Virus record (IMG/VR): IMGVR_UViG_3300029319_000164
Location: 1-28,442 of that record
Source: a virus
DNA: 28,442 bases
Reading direction: 5' to 3' (one strand)
The notes beneath the pieces were generated by a model. That model searched no databases. It saw only the letters and a list, made by a program, of their open reading frames with translations, and had not been told where the DNA came from. The position numbers were made by a program, and so were the translations under genes. Within the stretch, counting starts at the first letter, position 1. Each line of letters opens with the position of its first letter. This document shows, piece after piece, positions 3,257-25,116 of this stretch.

Positions 3257-3970
3257 ATGGCAGCACTTATTTGCAACTTACCATCAGTTGAAGTATGGGT
3301 ACGAAAAGAATACTTAACTGACCATCAAAGTGGTCATGGTGAGTTTGTTAAAGGCGTCTGGGTATCGGCTAAGTCGATTCCTGGGCGCACTTTTTATTTT
3401 GAGACATATTTACCAGAATATGCAGCAATGTATGATAAGTTACCTATCAGTGCATTTGTATCTGCTCCAGAGACTCCTAAACCTGATATGAACTTACCTA
3501 ACCTACAGTTTTGGAACTGTATGGACTATGGTGTTGTTTCAGTTACAAAACAGTTTATTGGTAGTATGGACTATGAACTGTATACAAGAGACTTTGGTAT
3601 TCAGAAAGGTACTTATATCTGTACTTTAGATAATTATCATCAAGATCCTGATGTAATTGACTATGCTACAAGTGAAAATCCTGCAGAACATAAGTCACAT
3701 AACCTAATTGAACTTGAAAATGGTCAATATGCATTGTATCCTAATAATAGAATGCGTATCTATGATAACAGTTTGACACCTGTCGAACCAAAAATGCCTG
3801 ATTTTAAGGTTTCAACGCAATATTATCAAGTTGAAAATGGTTTTGAACGTCTTGGTATGGGTCGTGAGGATGAATATTTCTGGAAAACAGCAAAAGAACG
3901 TGAAACAGAAGACGAAAGTATTGAAGATATGTACAAATCGCAAGATGGAAGACCACTTGATACGCAATAA
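3257..3970 (+). CDS. Conserved cyanomyovirus protein of unknown function, 237 residues
   Basis: This is a soluble, beta-rich protein without signal peptide or membrane span. The N-terminal part carries VEVWVRKEYLTDHQSGHGEF and WVSAKSIPGRTFYFETYLPEY. The middle has LQFWNCMDYGVV and IGSMDYELYTRDFG. The C-terminal third has TLDNYHQDPDVIDYATSE, LENGQYALYPNNRMRIYD and a charged tail. I recognise it as similar to an unnamed protein that accompanies the gp25 region in cyanomyoviruses, but know of no function. Its place just before the baseplate genes suggests a virion, assembly or early-structural role; that is inference. The start ATG at 3257 has no Shine-Dalgarno sequence. Its TAA stop lies inside the ATAAATA late-promoter core at 3967-3973. 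Confidence 0.8.
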   Translation: MAALICNLPSVEVWVRKEYLTDHQSGHGEFVKGVWVSAKSIPGRTFYFETYLPEYAAMYDKLPISAFVSAPETPKPDMNLPNLQFWNCMDYGVVSVTKQFIGSMDYELYTRDFGIQKGTYICTLDNYHQDPDVIDYATSENPAEHKSHNLIELENGQYALYPNNRMRIYDNSLTPVEPKMPDFKVSTQYYQVENGFERLGMGREDEYFWKTAKERETEDESIEDMYKSQDGRPLDTQ

Positions 3971-4322: not shown

Positions 4323-4724
4323 ATGCCTGTAGAACGGCTAAGCAAAGGATTTAAAGACGTAAGTTCATCATTTCAGAGTAATCCTCTGTCAAATGATCTG
4401 CTTGCGATTAAAAATGAGACTGCAATTGCCCGTTCTGTAAGGAATCTTGTCTTAACATATCAGGGTGAGAGACCATTTAACCAAATTTTAGGATCAAAGG
4501 TCAGTCGTTTATTGTTTGAAAATGTTAATGAGATTACTGCATCTGCAATAAAGGATGAAATTGAAACAACTATCAATAATTTTGAACCTAGGGTGAATTT
4601 ATTAGAAGTCAGAGTATCACCTGATTATAATGGATATGAATTTAATGTGAAAGTTCGTTATGAAATTGTTGGTATTGATGCATCACCACAACAGTTATCA
4701 TTTGTATTACAACCGACACGCTAA
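4323..4724 (+). CDS. gp25: Baseplate wedge subunit gp25
   Basis: This is the T4 gp25 homologue, a component of the baseplate wedge and related to the sheath-initiator proteins of other contractile systems (gp25-like family). At 133 residues it matches T4 gp25 (132). The conserved motif is present as NNFEPRVNLLEV (E88-P89-R90), followed by the beta strands YNGYEFNVKVRYEIVG. The N-terminal stretch LSNDLLAIKNETAIARSVRN and GERPFNQILGSKV are typical of the family. The start is set by the family length; no Shine-Dalgarno sequence precedes it. The stop overlaps the start of gp6 by one base (TAATG), so the two are translationally coupled, as expected for wedge proteins made in fixed proportion. Confidence 0.95.
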   Translation: MPVERLSKGFKDVSSSFQSNPLSNDLLAIKNETAIARSVRNLVLTYQGERPFNQILGSKVSRLLFENVNEITASAIKDEIETTINNFEPRVNLLEVRVSPDYNGYEFNVKVRYEIVGIDASPQQLSFVLQPTR

Positions 4725-6847
4725 TGGCACTAGTAAATTTCGCTAATTTAGACTTCGATCAAATTAAGACTTCGATTAAGGATTATCTTAGGTCGAACTC
4801 AAACTTTACTGACTATGATTTTGAGGGTTCAAACCTCTCAACTATTATTGATACGCTTGCATATAATACATATATCACCTCATATAATGCCAATATGGTA
4901 TCTAATGAGGTATTCATCGATTCCGCCACTCTCAGGGAGAATGTGGTGTCTCTGGCACGTAATATAGGATATACACCAAGGTCAAAGAAATCTGCAAGAG
5001 CAACGATATCTTTCTTTGTTGATACATCAAATTTATCTAATGTACCAACACAACTGACTTTAAAAGCAGGTACTGTATGTACAACACGGACTTTTAATGT
5101 TGAAAGTTATTCATTCACAATTCCAGCAGATATCACTGTTCCCGTTGTAAATAACATTGCAGAGTTTGATAATATTGTTGTTTATGAAGGAACAAGAGTT
5201 ACTGAAAACTTTACTGTAAGTTCTTTCAATAACAACCAAAGATTTATTCTTGGTAATGCTGGTATTGATACAAGCACCCTATCAGTTATAGTAAAACCAA
5301 ACGAAAACTCTACTGTAACTAGAACTTATAAATTAGCAGACAGTTTATTTGATGTAAAGTCAGATTCTGCAGTATATTATATTCAAGAAGTTGAAGATGA
5401 AAGATATGAGATAATTTTTGGTGATGGTATTTTTGGTAATAGGTTACAAGAACCAGACTTCATTGAAGTAAGTTATAATGTAACTAATGGAGTTGATGCA
5501 AATGGACTTTCATCATTTGTATTCTCTGGTAAAATAATAGATCAAGCAGATAGAATAGTTCAAGGTGGAATATCTCTTATTACAACTATAAATGAGTCTT
5601 CATTAGGTTCTAGTATTGAAAGTGTAGAGTCAGTTAAAAAGTACTCAACTCAGATATTTGCTTCAAGAAACCGTGCAGTAACAGCAGCAGACTATGAAGC
5701 TTTGATTCCTCTTGTATATCCTGAGACAGAATCAGTTTCTGCTTATGGTGGAGAAGAAGTTACACCACCACAATTTGGAAAGGTGTTCATAAGTGTAAAA
5801 CCATATAATAACAGATATATTTCTAACTTAGTTAAGGACAATATCAAGAGAGAACTGAAAAAATATTCTGTAGCTGGTATTGTTCCTGAAATTATTGATC
5901 TAAAATATCTTTTTATTGAAGTTGATTCAAACGTTTATTATAACTCCAATCTAACTACTTCCAATGAATCTGTAAAGAGTACGATTCTTTCTAATATTAC
6001 CGCATATTCAGATTCAACTGAATTAAATAGATTTGGAGCAAGGTTTAAATATAGTAAGTTTTTAAACTTGATTGATAGCAGTCACGATTCTGTTACTTCT
6101 AATATTACAAATATTGTAATGCGAAGAGATATGAGAGCAGAACTCAACTCTTTTGCAGATTATGAAATATGTTTTGGCAATCGTTTTCATATTAAAAACC
6201 ATGGACATGGAACTCATGGAGGACAAATAGGATACAATATCAAATCTTCTGCATTCTCTGTAAATGGTATTGGTGGTTCTGTTTATTTTGCTGACGTTCC
6301 AAACTCTGGTTTGAAGACAGGTTCTCTTAATCTTATAAGACTCATTTCCCCAACTGAAGCAAAAATAGTAAGAAAAAATGTTGGAACTATTGATTATGTG
6401 AAAGGAGAAATAAAAATATATCCTATCAATATCACATCAACAGCACTGGATAAAGGCGTTCCTACCATTGAGATTTCAGCTTACCCATATTCAAATGATG
6501 TCATAGGATTACAGGATCTTTATTTGCAACTAGATACTAGTAACATGATGATTAATATGCTATCTGATGGTATATCCTCTGGATCTGATATTTCTGGAAG
6601 TAACTATGAAGTATCTTCTAGTTATTCAAATGGTTCTCTTGTTCGTGGTCCAATTTTAGTATCAACAACAAATACCACTACAACCACTACTAACACTACC
6701 ACAACTGCTCCAACGTTTAGTACTTCTACAGCAACTAGTACAACTGGTTCTACAGTCGTATCTACCACATCATCAAGTCCAACTCCAACTCCAACACCTT
6801 CACCCTCTCCATCCCCATCAAGTGGCGGTGGCGGTTATACCTACTAA
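4724..6847 (+). CDS. gp6: Baseplate wedge subunit gp6 (baseplate J-like)
   Basis: This is the wedge protein that forms the baseplate inner ring in T4-like phages. At 707 residues it is slightly longer than T4 gp6 (660). Family landmarks are the N-terminal helical part (LSTIIDTLAYNTYITSYNAN), NVVSLARNIGYTPRSKKSAR, the FGDGIFGNRL turn, and ASRNRAVTAADYEALIPLVYPE, the usual baseplate-J signature. Two features are unusual. A His cluster lies at 489-498 (H489, H493, H495, H498). The last 60 residues (about 648-707) are low-complexity Thr/Ser/Pro with short PTPTP and SPSPS runs, ending GGGGYTY. The tail is probably flexible and surface-exposed. The gene overlaps gp25 by one base and ends 18 bases before the giant virion gene. 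Confidence 0.93.
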   Translation: MALVNFANLDFDQIKTSIKDYLRSNSNFTDYDFEGSNLSTIIDTLAYNTYITSYNANMVSNEVFIDSATLRENVVSLARNIGYTPRSKKSARATISFFVDTSNLSNVPTQLTLKAGTVCTTRTFNVESYSFTIPADITVPVVNNIAEFDNIVVYEGTRVTENFTVSSFNNNQRFILGNAGIDTSTLSVIVKPNENSTVTRTYKLADSLFDVKSDSAVYYIQEVEDERYEIIFGDGIFGNRLQEPDFIEVSYNVTNGVDANGLSSFVFSGKIIDQADRIVQGGISLITTINESSLGSSIESVESVKKYSTQIFASRNRAVTAADYEALIPLVYPETESVSAYGGEEVTPPQFGKVFISVKPYNNRYISNLVKDNIKRELKKYSVAGIVPEIIDLKYLFIEVDSNVYYNSNLTTSNESVKSTILSNITAYSDSTELNRFGARFKYSKFLNLIDSSHDSVTSNITNIVMRRDMRAELNSFADYEICFGNRFHIKNHGHGTHGGQIGYNIKSSAFSVNGIGGSVYFADVPNSGLKTGSLNLIRLISPTEAKIVRKNVGTIDYVKGEIKIYPINITSTALDKGVPTIEISAYPYSNDVIGLQDLYLQLDTSNMMINMLSDGISSGSDISGSNYEVSSSYSNGSLVRGPILVSTTNTTTTTTNTTTTAPTFSTSTATSTTGSTVVSTTSSSPTPTPTPSPSPSPSSGGGGYTY

Positions 6848-18987: not shown

Positions 18988-18994
18988 ATAAATA
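18988..18994 (+). promoter_or_regulatory. Late-promoter core (ATAAATA) for the fibre gene
   Basis: The motif follows the TAG stop of the giant gene by two bases and lies 19 bases before the fibre ATG at 19014. Its TAATAAATA context is the same as at 4294-4302. A T4-like start would leave a leader of about 13 nt with no Shine-Dalgarno sequence. Confidence 0.6.
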
Positions 18995-19013: not shown

Positions 19014-21860
19014 ATGGCAAGAGTAGCGATAAATACCGGCTCAGCTGCAAATGATGGAACAGGTGATAGCCTTCGTGGTGCCGGTGGTAAAATAAATTCA
19101 AACTTTGTTGACTTATACAATTTTCTGGGTGATGGTACTGATCTAACTCCTAGTTGGGATGTAGTAAGTACTGGTATCGTTACTACTGCAAATGTGGGTA
19201 TTGGAACTACAATTCCTAGATTTGATTTAGAAGTTGGGGCAGTTGGATCTTCTAGCACTTCTTTATATGTTCATGGAGAAGCTAATGCTACTAGTTTTTC
19301 TGGTTCTGCCTCTGGATTAACAAGTATTCCTTCAAGTCAGTTGACTGGAGCACTTCCAGCTCTTGATGGTTCTGCATTGACCAACGTTGTTGGTAGTGGA
19401 TCTGGTGTTGTTATTCAAGAAGAGGGATCGGCTGTAGGAACTGCAGGAACTATTGACTTTGTGGGATCTGCAGTGACCGCAACATTTAGTGGTGGTATTG
19501 CTACTGTTAGTATTAGTGGTGGGGGAATTCAGGGTGTTGTTGTTCAAGAAGAGGGGTCAACTGTAGGAACTGCAGGAACTATTGACTTTGTGGGTACTGG
19601 AGTAACTGCGACATTTAGTGGTGGTATTGCCACAGTTAGTATTAGTGGTGGTGGAGGTGGAGGTGCCTCTTCTATTAATGACTTATCTGATGCTACTACT
19701 GGTGGAACTGCAAGTCTTGGTTTAGGTTCACAATCTCTTGGACAGGCTAGTGGCAACAACACAGGCAGTAACAATGTTGCAGTTGGTGATGCTGCCATGT
19801 ATGCCATTACATCTGGCGATTACAATTCAGCTTTAGGTGTTGCCGCTTTACGTTATAATAATAGTGGATCATATAATTCAGCAGTAGGATACCATGCCTT
19901 ATATTACTGCAATGAAGGATATGATAATACTGCTGTTGGTTATGAAGCGGCCTACAACATAACAACTGGATATGGCAATGTAGCAGTCGGAAAACAAGCA
20001 CTTAGAACACATAATGAAGGAAATCGTAATACTGCTATAGGTTGGAAAAGTTTATATTATACTACAGGAAATTCTAACACTGGTGTTGGTGCCGTTGCCC
20101 TAGAAAACAATAAAACAGGAACTGAAAACACCGCGGTTGGTAATGCTGCTTTACAACAAAATATTGAGGGAATTCAAAATACTGCATTGGGCAGTGCTGC
20201 TGGTTATGGAAATACCAGTGGTAATTATAATGTTGCCATAGGACGTTATGCTTTAAAGGAAAATCAAACTGGCAACAGTAATGTTGCAATTGGAAACAGA
20301 GCATTAGAGAACCTGGAAAATAAAGACTCATGTATTGCTATTGGATCCCGAGCCGGAACAGCATCAACAAGTTCACAATGGTTTGTTGCACTTGGTGATT
20401 CCGCTCTCGCTGATCAAACTACTGCCAACTACAACACGGCTTTAGGACATCAGTGTCTGGGCAAAGCAACAACAGGTGGTTCAAATGTTGCGGTTGGTGC
20501 TAATGCAGTATATAAACTCACTACAGGAAATTATAATACTGGAGTTGGTTATAATGCATTATATGAATGTACTGGAAGTTCAACTGGTAACGTAGCACTT
20601 GGTTACAAGGCTGGATCTGAGGTAGCAAATGGCGATTACAACACTTTTGCTGGTTATGGAGCTGGAGAAAAAGTCACATCTGGCAGCGGTAACGTTGCTG
20701 TAGGTCATAATGCTTTAGGTGTAAGTACTTCAGGAAATAATAATGTTGCTGTTGGAGAGTATGCGCTTAATGGTGCTACTACTGGATATCAAAATGCTGT
20801 TCTTGGTTATAATGCAGGATATAATATTACAGAGGGATATTATAATGTCGCGGTTGGAGCAGATGCAGCAAAACTTTCCACGACCGGTACTAACAATGTA
20901 TCTATAGGACACCAAGCAGCACAAACCCTAACCACTGGTAGTAATAACATAACCATTGGATATAACGCACAACCTAGTAGTGCAACTGCTTCTCATGAAA
21001 TTACTATTGGTGATAGTTTTGCCAAGACCTTGCGTATTCCTGGATTAAATGGGAATGACGGTGAAGTCCTTAGTTACAATTCATCAACTTCTAGTATCGC
21101 TTTTAGTGATTATACCGGAGACCTTTCAGATGCTGTAACAAGTAGATGGACCCTTGGTGCTAATGGTACTAATCATTATACATTTACTGGACCTGGTTTT
21201 TCTGGAGCTACAGATGATCCAACAGTATTTTTACAAAGAGGGCATACATATGAATTTGTAAATGGAATGAATGCCCATCCTTTCAAAATTCAACTTGAAT
21301 ATCAAAATACAACAGGTACAGCGTATGCTACTGGCGTAACTAACAATGGAGCACAAAATGGCACTATAAAATTCAAAGTGCCAATGGATGCACCCAATAA
21401 ACTTCACTATCAATGTACTTCCCATGTGGGAATGTCTGGAACCATCTTCATTGGACCAGCACAAAATGTTCCTGTTGGACAAAGACAAGTTGTTTCTGCA
21501 TCAACTGGTAACGTAGCTTCAAACAATAGTGCAAACATTTCAATTCCTGGATTTAAAACATATAGTTTGTTAAAAGTTGATATAGATCATCCTGCATGGG
21601 TGAGATTATATGTTGACTCTTCTTCAAGAACATCAGATTCTAGTAGAGTTTATACAACAGATCCAACACCAGGTTCTGGTATGATAGCAGAAGTTCGCAC
21701 TACAACTGCAGGCACCAGCACATTCTTAATGTCTCCAGGAGTTATTGGATGGAATAATGATTCCACTACAAGTGAAACAATATATGCAAGAGTTACAAAT
21801 AATGACTCTTTAACGAGAGACATTACAGTCAGTTTAACCGTAGTTAAGTTAGAAGGCTAA
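19014..21860 (+). CDS. Tail fibre or adhesin with YadA-like repeats and C-terminal cupredoxin-like domain
   Basis: This 948-residue protein probably forms a trimeric fibre attached to the baseplate. The N-terminus INTGSAANDGTGDSLRGAGG ... KINSNFVDLY is a common phage fibre-anchor module. Residues about 131-216 are two 43-residue direct repeats. Residues about 248-675 are some 25 repeats of about 16-17 residues of the form N-VAVG-AL-TTG, the head repeat of YadA/Hep_Hag adhesins, expected to fold as a trimeric beta roll. Residues about 710-815 look like a cupredoxin domain with H755, C801, H804 and M807, the set of type-1 copper ligands in the CxxHxxM spacing of amicyanin. A last beta-rich domain (about 816-948) may be the receptor-binding tip. 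The stop overlaps the protease start by one base. No signal peptide, as expected for a virion part. Copper binding is inferred. Confidence 0.85.
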   Translation: MARVAINTGSAANDGTGDSLRGAGGKINSNFVDLYNFLGDGTDLTPSWDVVSTGIVTTANVGIGTTIPRFDLEVGAVGSSSTSLYVHGEANATSFSGSASGLTSIPSSQLTGALPALDGSALTNVVGSGSGVVIQEEGSAVGTAGTIDFVGSAVTATFSGGIATVSISGGGIQGVVVQEEGSTVGTAGTIDFVGTGVTATFSGGIATVSISGGGGGGASSINDLSDATTGGTASLGLGSQSLGQASGNNTGSNNVAVGDAAMYAITSGDYNSALGVAALRYNNSGSYNSAVGYHALYYCNEGYDNTAVGYEAAYNITTGYGNVAVGKQALRTHNEGNRNTAIGWKSLYYTTGNSNTGVGAVALENNKTGTENTAVGNAALQQNIEGIQNTALGSAAGYGNTSGNYNVAIGRYALKENQTGNSNVAIGNRALENLENKDSCIAIGSRAGTASTSSQWFVALGDSALADQTTANYNTALGHQCLGKATTGGSNVAVGANAVYKLTTGNYNTGVGYNALYECTGSSTGNVALGYKAGSEVANGDYNTFAGYGAGEKVTSGSGNVAVGHNALGVSTSGNNNVAVGEYALNGATTGYQNAVLGYNAGYNITEGYYNVAVGADAAKLSTTGTNNVSIGHQAAQTLTTGSNNITIGYNAQPSSATASHEITIGDSFAKTLRIPGLNGNDGEVLSYNSSTSSIAFSDYTGDLSDAVTSRWTLGANGTNHYTFTGPGFSGATDDPTVFLQRGHTYEFVNGMNAHPFKIQLEYQNTTGTAYATGVTNNGAQNGTIKFKVPMDAPNKLHYQCTSHVGMSGTIFIGPAQNVPVGQRQVVSASTGNVASNNSANISIPGFKTYSLLKVDIDHPAWVRLYVDSSSRTSDSSRVYTTDPTPGSGMIAEVRTTTAGTSTFLMSPGVIGWNNDSTTSETIYARVTNNDSLTRDITVSLTVVKLEG
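19404..19661 (+). repeat. 129-bp tandem direct repeat in the fibre gene
   Basis: Two adjacent 129-bp units (19404-19532 and 19533-19661) encode 43 residues each. They are nearly identical over long blocks such as VGTAGTIDFVG and ATFSGGIATVSISGGG, and differ mainly at synonymous sites. The reading frame is kept. The high DNA identity suggests a recent duplication or ongoing recombination that changes fibre length. Confidence 0.8.
19755..21040 (+). repeat. YadA-head repeat array (about 25 units)
   Basis: Units of 48-51 bp encode the pattern N-xVAVGxxAL-xxTTG. I count about 25 copies. They differ in DNA sequence more than in protein, so selection acts on the structural repeat. The last units lose the pattern (ITIGYNAQPS, ITIGDSFAKT), marking the end of the beta roll before the cupredoxin-like domain. 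Confidence 0.8.
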
Positions 21861-23515
21861 TGACAAAGTACATAGTAACCGTAAAAAAAGGAACTGATAT
21901 TGAGTCTTTTTATAATGATATGGAAACTCTTGGAGGAGACTCCAGAATACCTTCGAGACAAGTATCTTGTTATGACAGGAGACCTACTAGTAGAAACACT
22001 GGATATGATTTAGAAGATGATGAGATTGAATCTTTATTGAAAGATAATAGGGTATTGGATATTCAAAGTCAGTCTTCGATAGATTCGTTGATAACTAAAC
22101 CATTGTGGACACAAACGTCATCAGATTGGGACAAAAGTTCTACACCAACAAACACCAATAGAAATTGGTCTTTGTATCGATGTGTTAATGGATCGCAAGT
22201 GTCAAATTGGGGTTCTAATCATACTTCAGATGCTAGTGCCACTATTACAACAACATCATCAGGAAAAAATGTAGATGTTGTAATAGTGGATGGACATCTT
22301 AACACAAGCCATCCTGAGTTTGCTGTTAATGATGATGGTACTGGCGGAAGTAGAGTTCAACAATTTAATTGGTATTCACTAACAAATGAAATTACAGGTG
22401 GTGCAAATGGATCTTACGCTTATAGATCTGGAACTGATTTAAATAATGCAAATGATAATCATGGAATGCATGTTGCTGGCACAGTAGCAGGAAACACTCA
22501 AGGTTGGGCTAGAGATGCTAACATTTATTATGTTAGTCCATATGACGGACAAATAGCTAATCAGTACCTTTTTGAATATATAAGAGCTTGGCATAACCAG
22601 AAATCAATAAATTCTGATACTGGCAGAAGGAATCCAACTATTGTCAATAATAGTTGGGGTTCATCATATGTATTAACTAGATCTAATGTTACTGCTATTT
22701 CATATAGAGGAACCTCAGATAGTGATGGTTCATGGACTGATAGTGAATTAGATGCATATGGTATAAGAGATTATACTGCATCAAACATTAATGTTCAGGC
22801 GTATGTTCCATCATTTATTGCGGATATTGAAGATGCTGTAGATGATGGAATTATTTTTGTAGGTGCTGCAGGAAATGATTCAACTAAAATTGATGTTGAA
22901 GGAGGTACTGATTACGATAATTATATAACTTCCGGATCTAATTACTACTATCATAGAGGAAATTGGACCAGTGCTGGTGCAGTGTCTGGTACTGGTGGAG
23001 CGCGACTTTCAGTTTGTGTAGGTGCAGTAAGTGCTTTAGTAAATGAATCTAAAGCAACTTTCAGTAATTGTGGATCAAGAATCGACATATTTGCTCCAGG
23101 AGATAATATAATTTCTCCTGTTAATGATGGAACTATTACTGGAGGTTCTGTTACTACTGTTAACGACTCTAGAAATTCTTCATATAAACTTGCAAAATAT
23201 GATGGTACTAGTATGGCATCTCCACAAGTTTGTGGTGTTCTTGCATGTTTACTTGAACAATATCCAAATATGAATCAGAGTGACGTTATTGATTATTTGA
23301 ATCAACATGCAAAAGGGAGTCAAATGACTGCAACCAGTGGTGGACATACTGATGATACAGATCTTCAAGGTGCTGATAATGAATACTTATTTTATTTTAA
23401 AGAAAGACCTGAAACTGGAGTATCTATCCCCAGATATACTTATAGTTCTAGGAACTCATCATCTAATGGTGTAAAGTATCCAAGAACTAACAGAATGGTG
23501 ACAAAGCGTCAATAA
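21860..23515 (+). CDS. Subtilisin-like serine protease (peptidase S8) with pro-domain
   Basis: This 551-residue endopeptidase carries all catalytic residues of family S8: Asp144 in VVIVDGHLN, His201 in NDNHGMHVAGT, the oxyanion Asn339 in GAAGNDS and Ser451 in YDGTSMASPQ. The spacing is that of a complete catalytic domain (about 135-500). Residues 1-75 (MTKYIVTVKKGTD ... DDEIESLLKDNRVLDIQ) resemble the inhibitor-I9 pro-domain that helps folding and is then cut off. About 60 residues lie between pro-domain and catalytic Asp. A 50-residue Arg- and Ser-rich tail (RPETGVSIPRYTYSSR, ending VTKRQ) may anchor it to the virion. There is no signal peptide. The start overlaps the fibre stop (TAATG), so it is co-translated with the fibre, and gp8 follows. 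Likely roles are cleavage of virion proteins during assembly or of host surface proteins; the substrate is unknown. Confidence 0.9.
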   Translation: MTKYIVTVKKGTDIESFYNDMETLGGDSRIPSRQVSCYDRRPTSRNTGYDLEDDEIESLLKDNRVLDIQSQSSIDSLITKPLWTQTSSDWDKSSTPTNTNRNWSLYRCVNGSQVSNWGSNHTSDASATITTTSSGKNVDVVIVDGHLNTSHPEFAVNDDGTGGSRVQQFNWYSLTNEITGGANGSYAYRSGTDLNNANDNHGMHVAGTVAGNTQGWARDANIYYVSPYDGQIANQYLFEYIRAWHNQKSINSDTGRRNPTIVNNSWGSSYVLTRSNVTAISYRGTSDSDGSWTDSELDAYGIRDYTASNINVQAYVPSFIADIEDAVDDGIIFVGAAGNDSTKIDVEGGTDYDNYITSGSNYYYHRGNWTSAGAVSGTGGARLSVCVGAVSALVNESKATFSNCGSRIDIFAPGDNIISPVNDGTITGGSVTTVNDSRNSSYKLAKYDGTSMASPQVCGVLACLLEQYPNMNQSDVIDYLNQHAKGSQMTATSGGHTDDTDLQGADNEYLFYFKERPETGVSIPRYTYSSRNSSSNGVKYPRTNRMVTKRQ

Positions 23516-23526
23516 ATCTTATCTAA

Positions 23527-23533
23527 ATAAATA
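23527..23533 (+). promoter_or_regulatory. Late-promoter core (ATAAATA) for gp8
   Basis: The motif lies 12 bases after the protease stop codon and 14 bases before the gp8 ATG at 23548. A near copy (ATAAATC, 23512-23518) overlaps the protease stop. Initiation about 6-7 bases downstream would leave a leader of only about 8 nt. Confidence 0.6.
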
Positions 23534-23547
23534 AAAACTCCCGCAAA

Positions 23548-25116
23548 ATGGCTGCAATTATAACTGATCAACTTCGTATTTTGAATGCGAATAATTTTGT
23601 AGTTGGTGTTGCTTCTACGAGTAACTCATATTATTCATTTGTTGGTTTACCAAACGCAACAGATTATGCTACTGATTGGAATATAGATCCACCATCACCT
23701 ACCGACAACTTTGGTGAGGAAAATGATTATTGGGACACAATGATCGCGTTGAAGAAAATAACAAGAGATGATGTAAGACAGGTTGTTAAAAAGTCAACAT
23801 GGACTTCTGGTATTACATATGACATGTATCGTCATGATATTAGTGCCTCTAATCCAGCAACGCCTTCCAATTCTGTTGACTTATATTCTGCAAACTATTA
23901 TGTAATGAATAGTGACTTCAGAGTTTATATTTGTTTGAGTAATGGTGCAACTCCAGAAAATCCTGCAGGTAGACCTTCATTAGACGAACCAACATTTATT
24001 GATCTGGAACCAAGAGAAGCCGGGACTAGTGGAGATGGTTATATTTGGAAATATCTTTATACTATTAAACCTAGTGAATATGTAAAATTTGATACTACAG
24101 AATACATGCCAGTTCCACTAGAATGGGGAACAAACACAGATGATTCTGCTGTAAGAAATAATGCAGCAACTAGTGGTCAAATAAAAGTTGTTATCATTAA
24201 AGATAGGGGAGTTGGTGTAGGAACTGCTAATAGAACATATACTAGAATTCCTATTAAAGGTGATGGTTCTGGTGCAGAAGCAACGGTAGTTGTTAATAAT
24301 GATGCGAAAGTTGATAGTATAACTGTTTCTAGAGGTGGTTCTGGATATACATTTGGAACTATAGATTTAACAGCAGGCAATGTTCCATCTGGAACTACTT
24401 CTCCTGTTTTTGACGTTATCATTCCGCCTCAAGGAGGGCATGGATCTGATATCTATAGGGAGTTGGGTGCATCTAATGTTCTTATGTATTCTAGAATTGA
24501 AAACGATACCCAGAATCCAGACTTTATTACTGGAAATGAAATAGCAAGAGTTGGTATAGTTCAAAGCCCTATTAGTAATGGAACAAGTGAACTTTTAACT
24601 CTAAACAAAGCAAGTGCAGTGTACGCACTTAAATTGACTGGTATTGGATATAGTTCTGTCACTTTTGCCGCAGATACACAAATTACACAAACAATCGGTA
24701 TTGGTTCTACTGCTTTTGGTAGAGTAGTTTCATATGATCAAAACACTGGAGTTTTAAAGTATTGGCAAGATAAGTTTCATGTTGGGTTTAATACCGATGG
24801 AACTAAAAATGCATCTCCAACATATGGTTTTGATATGCATAGATTTACTGCAGATATTGGATCCGGGGGTTCATTAAATATTATTGGTGGATCTGCAACC
24901 TTAGGAATTGAAACTACATTTGGTAGTACTAGCAACCCAGGTATAAGTACCATAATAAATAGTAGGACATACTATTTGGGTCAACAATTTATTAATGGAG
25001 TGTCCCAACCAGAAGTTAAAAAATATTCTGGAAATATAATTTACGTTGACAATAGACCATCAATTACAAGGTCATCTAACCAAAAAGAAGATATTAAAGT
25101 TATTTTGCAATTCTAA
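23548..25116 (+). CDS. gp8: Baseplate wedge subunit gp8
   Basis: This is the homologue of T4 gp8, a wedge protein at the baseplate periphery. Matches I can see to T4 gp8 are GDGYIWKYLYTI near residue 160 (T4 GDGYVWEYLFEI) and the C-terminus IIYVDNRPSITRS ... EDIKVILQF (T4 MIYMENRPPI ... INILFTF). At 522 residues it is much longer than the T4 protein (334). Most of the extra length lies in the second half, including a GGSGY module near 257 like those in the giant protein and a segment IGIGSTAFGRVVSYDQNTG. The late-promoter core is 14 bases upstream and there is no Shine-Dalgarno sequence. The next gene begins six bases after its stop. Confidence 0.9.
   Translation: MAAIITDQLRILNANNFVVGVASTSNSYYSFVGLPNATDYATDWNIDPPSPTDNFGEENDYWDTMIALKKITRDDVRQVVKKSTWTSGITYDMYRHDISASNPATPSNSVDLYSANYYVMNSDFRVYICLSNGATPENPAGRPSLDEPTFIDLEPREAGTSGDGYIWKYLYTIKPSEYVKFDTTEYMPVPLEWGTNTDDSAVRNNAATSGQIKVVIIKDRGVGVGTANRTYTRIPIKGDGSGAEATVVVNNDAKVDSITVSRGGSGYTFGTIDLTAGNVPSGTTSPVFDVIIPPQGGHGSDIYRELGASNVLMYSRIENDTQNPDFITGNEIARVGIVQSPISNGTSELLTLNKASAVYALKLTGIGYSSVTFAADTQITQTIGIGSTAFGRVVSYDQNTGVLKYWQDKFHVGFNTDGTKNASPTYGFDMHRFTADIGSGGSLNIIGGSATLGIETTFGSTSNPGISTIINSRTYYLGQQFINGVSQPEVKKYSGNIIYVDNRPSITRSSNQKEDIKVILQF

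Follow-up and report, generated by a model that had tools for sequence, protein, structure and literature searches.

A subtilase-family protease gene linked to a tail fibre gene in marine T4-like cyanophages: a candidate virion-borne, fibre-mounted enzyme

The window analysed here is a whole stretch of 28,442 nucleotides of the IMG/VR virus record IMGVR_UViG_3300029319_000164. Positions 21860..23515 of its plus strand carry a full-length ORF of 551 aa, with an ATG start codon at 21860 and a stop codon ending at 23515, which was assigned to the S8 subtilase family of proteases by Pfam, PHROG, catalytic motifs and fold modeling. It follows a fibre gene encoding 948 aa (19014..21860, plus strand; ORF call and PHROG), the stop codon of which shares exactly one base with the protease start codon (TAATG), and it precedes a gene for a gp8-like baseplate wedge protein (23548..25116, plus strand; Pfam and PHROG 438, 2.5e-163). 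Both neighbours and the one-base overlap agree with the initial annotation of this DNA. The segment 6866-18985 is occupied by a single ORF of 4039 aa that lies between gp6 and the fibre gene, in a gp7-like position, and genes of 12-16 kb are found at the corresponding gp7-like place in S-SCSM1, S-H38 and S-CREM1. Just upstream of the baseplate genes, a 237-aa ORF (3257-3970) matches PHROG 3704 'ferredoxin', an auxiliary metabolic gene.

The late-promoter-like motif ATAAATA was found 21-27 bp upstream of gp25, the fibre gene and gp8 in the window. The copy at 18988..18994 (plus strand) lies 26 bp upstream of the fibre gene, and the copy at 23527..23533 (plus strand), located before gp8, marks the end of the fibre-protease unit; both are putative and recognized by motif only. 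No ATAAATA was found upstream of the protease gene in the window. The placement of these putative motifs fits the fibre and protease genes forming one late unit.

In SynMITS9220M01, which has the closest relative of the window gp8, the gp7-like gene directly adjoins gp8, and the fibre-protease pair therefore looks inserted between gp7 and gp8. The initial annotation had placed the protease gene inside a baseplate cassette and proposed a search for it at the same position in related phages. The pair is located in the same baseplate region in S-H38 and S-CREM1, whereas in most cultured relatives the protease gene belongs to a tail-fibre cluster elsewhere; the baseplate location holds for the window and these two phages, but not as a constant feature. 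Baseplate position was rejected as the key to function, since it varies in relatives while the fibre neighbour is constant.

According to the Pfam analysis, PF00082 matches residues 135-490 of the protease (4.4e-29; 102.1 bits with a curated cut-off of 21.8), and PHROG 9158 matches the predicted protein at 1.3e-99, both scores being far beyond chance. The peptidase S8 catalytic domain (aa 135-490; 22262..23329, plus strand; Pfam and motifs) contains the complete set of catalytic residues listed in the initial annotation, namely, D144 in VDVVIVD (22289-22291), H201 in DNHGMHVAG (22460-22462), N339 in AAGN (22874-22876) and S451 in GTSMASP (23210-23212). The AlphaFold2 model (23 sequences; pLDDT only 73.6) predicts a subtilase fold, and the closest PDB folds are those of aqualysin I (Foldseek E 1.2e-14) and proteinase K-like enzymes. 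In the same model, aa 1-70 (21860..22069, plus strand) show the beta-alpha-beta-beta-alpha-beta topology of the I9 propeptide (pLDDT mostly 80-88), though the Pfam I9 profile gives no match to the N-terminal region; the I9-like pro-domain noted earlier stands as a predicted topology and not as a profile match. The lack of a signal peptide, also noted earlier, was confirmed by hydropathy analysis, which indicates no signal peptide-like or hydrophobic N-terminus and no transmembrane segment in the protease. S8 enzymes usually work outside cells. The predicted fold, the D/H/N/S motifs and a putative I9-type pro-domain topology are common to the window protease and peptidases S8 such as aqualysin I and proteinase K-like enzymes, whereas phage origin, the lack of a signal peptide, an extra C-terminal G-x3-PR tail and linkage to a fibre gene distinguish it from the family in general.

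Homologues of the protease were found by tblastn in 40 phage records, all of them cyanomyoviruses or marine virus contigs, with 25-50% identity. The window gp8 matches 572 phage records, approximately 458 of which are cyanophages by name, and these counts make the protease an accessory gene, present in about one in ten. Some of the 40 records are already annotated as 'subtilisin-like serine protease', so the gene family itself is not new. Across the set of 97 distinct homologues, with identity ranging from 25 to 75%, the His, the oxyanion Asn and the Ser are invariant (97/97), and the catalytic Asp is present in 94; in the remaining three, which form one small clade (S-CAM1 L065, L104 and L131), this position reads Glu (VDIVTLE). 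With the triad and the Asn conserved to this degree, nearly all homologues are probably working enzymes, and a degenerate pseudoprotease was rejected. The view that the window enzyme is probably active is well supported by these alignments, and loss of catalytic residues in homologues, named earlier as the case against it, is confined to the Asp to Glu change in the three sequences.

Several homologues and similar proteins have unusual annotation or architecture. The S-CAM1 protein AOV57849.1 (L065:6308-8563) is annotated as 'putative proximal tail fiber protein' yet matches S8 (Pfam, 3.5e-10). A giant protein of S-BM3 (SBM3_00202, 2649 aa; L064:1-3340; OQ319121.1 135315-143261) is annotated as 'peptidase S8', and the phage that encodes it is without the fibre-linked S8 protease family. 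Alpha/beta-hydrolase (esterase)-like stretches (LLHGNGG, GYSNGG), read by eye, are fused behind the protease in L057 and L036 and give no Pfam match above threshold. In the S-SCSM1 homologue, two stretches are of the LamG lectin type, and a cupredoxin domain is present in another homologue; such fusions are expected of proteins that act at surfaces.

At every readable locus, the end of a same-strand ORF lies between -4 and +8 nt relative to the start of the protease gene. The N-termini of these partner fibres differ among phages: the baseplate-connector 'NDGTGD' type, to which the window fibre belongs, the 'MAINFP' type and others were found. Their last ~125 residues are homologous, with the exception of four phages that have an unrelated end, and this conserved fibre C-terminal domain is referred to here as the dock. 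In the window, the dock, of type A, comprises the last 129 aa of the fibre (21471..21857, plus strand) and is defined by alignment, model and linkage; it is modeled as a beta-sandwich with a pLDDT of 94.8. Matches of this model in the PDB were weak and scattered among jelly-rolls (HFTV1 turret, GOLD domains, plant virus capsids, Tk-SP) and were not used as evidence of its identity. The constant partner of the protease is the fibre gene just upstream, by way of the fibre C-terminal domain. The fibre-protease pair is kept in S-CAM1, S-H38, S-RSM4 and others.

Just before the dock, the window fibre has a cupredoxin-like stretch (aa 721-815; 21174..21458, plus strand) with CTSHVGM near its end, which was recognized by eye (Pfam Copper-bind E = 0.075). 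The same pattern, HP[FL] ... C-x2-H-x2-M, occurs in fibre homologues in L046, L059, L035 and L036, and the same domain type is fused behind the protease in other phages; copper binding is putative.

A search with the dock alone, with a profile built on S8-linked docks, gave at least 541 matches, and among the best 80 of them an S8 gene lies next to the dock in 57 of 59 newly found distinct sites. Overall, S8 is the neighbour in 100 of 109 distinct sites with a readable next gene, and nine sites have other genes; the true S8-linked fraction is probably lower because of the restriction to the best 80 matches and the origin of the profile. A separate S8 scan of genome contigs identified three close relatives (L146, L147, L148), each with the same dock upstream. 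These three sequences are contigs in bacterial or archaeal MAGs (Rhodobacteraceae, Rickettsiales, Euryarchaeota) and are probably misbinned cyanophage contigs.

Two kinds of genes other than S8 were found behind the dock. In L117, a kumamolisin-like S53 protease (4383-5660; PDB phmmer 8.8e-31) takes the S8 place directly behind a type A dock; Pfam calls this gene plain S8, an assignment that was rejected since the PDB comparison gives kumamolisin/sedolisin. S53 and S8 are separate families within one clan. The replacement of S8 by S53 in L117 indicates that proteolysis is the retained property. Eight of the nine exceptions belong to one family of non-protease proteins of 608-929 aa, which mostly begin near NGGNTGW, end with PCPYYLPDDF...ARTT and contain no Pfam domains (L058:6569-8872, L062:2689-5019, L066:6383-8680, L064:6302-8128, L052:40709-42679, L089:433-2715, L036:2233-4560 and L067:6371-9160). 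The dock is consequently no marker of S8 only. Members of this NGGNTGW family are possible alternative tip proteins; the one from S-SCSM1 bears the virion protein label. Since the dock takes exchangeable partners, a role as protease substrate only is less probable.

Behind the catalytic domain, homologous proteases carry the motif G-x3-P[RK], sometimes twice. The window enzyme has two such motifs (RPETGVSIPR and NGVKYPR) in a C-terminal tail (aa 516-542; 23405..23485, plus strand) that is proposed to be its dock-binding part. The motif was found within 125 residues in 83 of 97 homologues and behind an inserted domain in 7 more, and the fuller form R-x2-4-G-x3-P[RK] occurs in 61 of 97 as compared with 1% of shuffled tails. 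The motif G-x3-P[RK] occurs in enzymes paired with type A docks (90/93; three are without it) and is absent from all four enzymes paired with type B docks (P-SSM2, S-SCSM1, S-T4, Sf-CH5), which have a different common tail, [FY][NS]P[FY]xN; type B comprises these four sequences only, two of them close. Profile comparison gives no support for uniting docks A and B in a single family. The S53 enzyme of L117, located beside a type A dock, bears RRPATGMVWPR. The type of tail follows the type of dock even when the catalytic domain is swapped, which suggests, from sequence comparison, that the protease attaches to the dock by this tail. The homologues are mutually related, and the counts for tail and pairing are therefore not independent events. 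The G-x3-P[RK] motif is absent from the NGGNTGW family; because eight docks precede these tail-less proteins, the tail is not the sole way of using the dock.

Evidence concerning the virion comes from S-SCSM1, for which 45 proteins were reported by MS of CsCl-purified virions (PMC9602691). In the GenBank record of this phage, both the S8 homologue (228) and the preceding fibre (227) are labelled virion protein, and the same label is borne by ORFs 91, 213 and 214, which were detected according to PMC9602691. By our count, 48 genes of the record have this label as against the 45 proteins of PMC9602691, so that label and MS detection are close and not identical. The suggestion that the window protease may be carried in the virion gains support through this relative, where the label is consistent with the published proteome. 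Cleavage of the giant protein, the fibre and the wedge proteins by this enzyme, for which the initial annotation had proposed to look, received no support in the analysis.

Taken together, the data suggest, with a probability of about 0.6, a two-gene module of marine T4-like cyanophages that would provide a virion-borne protease mounted on the fibre and acting on host surface proteins. The first gene would encode a fibre ending in the ~125-residue beta-sandwich dock, and the second, overlapping or abutting it, an S8 protease that is produced late in zymogen form and has an I9-like pro-domain. After assembly, the dock would hold the protease, probably by its C-terminal G-x3-PR tail, in the manner of gp38 on gp37 in T2-type phages. 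On the virion, at adsorption, the protease may cut host surface proteins and so expose the receptor or the outer membrane. The gene, its catalytic residues and their conservation, the predicted fold, the gene pairing, the correlation of tail and dock and the virion label in one relative are observations, and we infer from them that the protease is attached to the fibre and active, as well as its substrate and the time of its action.

The main rival explanation is a maturation protease that would trim the upstream fibre, or other tail proteins, inside the cell during assembly, its presence in the virion being residual. Strict pairing with one fibre gene is also expected of a protease and its substrate, the protease has no signal peptide, the dock as the conserved part could be a removable C-terminal domain, and T4 gp38 provides a precedent of an assembly factor released after use (PMC12892980). 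This explanation nevertheless seems unlikely, as the dock is kept before a non-protease family at eight sites and thus has a role where no proteolysis is involved, fusions to LamG and cupredoxin would be unexpected in an assembly protease, and the S-SCSM1 homologue is labelled virion protein.

The near-invariance of the catalytic residues (H/N/S 97/97, D 94/97) despite 25-75% identity and the independent replacement by another protease family (S53) make it rather improbable that the protein is a structural tip, that is, a subtilase-fold adhesin that binds the receptor, with proteolysis dispensable or serving only for self-processing of the pro-domain. Such a role would agree with a non-protease family standing in behind the dock, with the lectin domains fused to homologues and with the small clade having Glu for the catalytic Asp. 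The least probable explanation, to which we give very little weight, is a free enzyme that leaves the cell at lysis, or is shed from particles, to break down debris, decoy proteins or the surfaces of neighbouring cells. The usual extracellular action of S8 enzymes and the late-type expression together with the fibre fit it, but strict pairing with a fibre domain, the correlation of tail and dock, and the virion label in S-SCSM1 speak against it.

Returning to the fibre-mounted protease, we give about even odds to a plug-and-socket arrangement on marine cyanophage fibres, in which the dock would take an S8, S53 or NGGNTGW partner, the proteases would grip it by the G-x3-PR tail, and the virion protease would digest host surface proteins at adsorption. 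If true, this would account for a 'hypothetical' gene that recurs in abundant viruses of the ocean, direct attention to a short signal for attachment and to the socket that receives it, make surface proteins of marine Synechococcus testable as an infection barrier, and give a simple rule for re-annotating both fibre and protease genes. The cyanophage genes annotated as 'subtilisin-like serine protease', T4-GC_292 or PHROG 9158 belong to the same family as the window protease, but their records give no more than a family name or 'hypothetical protein', and role, partner and tail are absent there. Searches of open-licence literature for the protease in phage tails yielded nothing on this family, and neither its pairing with the dock nor the tail nor the exchange for S53 was found described there, which is weak evidence of absence; the context of the protease, its pairing with the fibre dock, appears to be undescribed.

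Among known fibre-tip systems, the long tail fibres of T2-type phages carry the adhesin gp38 on the tip of the gp37 trimer, and gp38 of T4, the gene of which occupies the same position next to gp37, acts as an assembly factor and is then released (PMC12892980). The proposed module resembles the T2 gp37-gp38 pair in having the partner gene directly after the fibre gene, an exchangeable partner for a conserved fibre end and a proposed place at the fibre tip. T2 gp38, however, is an adhesin of the polyglycine-helix type that lacks enzyme activity and is attached by its N-terminus, whereas the window protein is a predicted protease with a proposed C-terminal anchor. Profile and fold searches identified it as a subtilase, and neither homology to gp38 nor its polyglycine II-helix fold was found. 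Because the protein families differ, the module may be considered T2-like in its working and not a member of that system.

Polysaccharide-degrading tailspikes are common; to our knowledge, fibre-mounted proteases directed against host surface proteins are hardly described as a family. If the proposed mechanism is correct, the module would be the protein-cutting counterpart of the polysaccharide depolymerases. Like the depolymerase tailspikes, the protease would be a virion enzyme that degrades the host surface layer at adsorption. The tailspikes cut polysaccharide and form one polypeptide with the spike, whereas here a protease is encoded by a separate gene.
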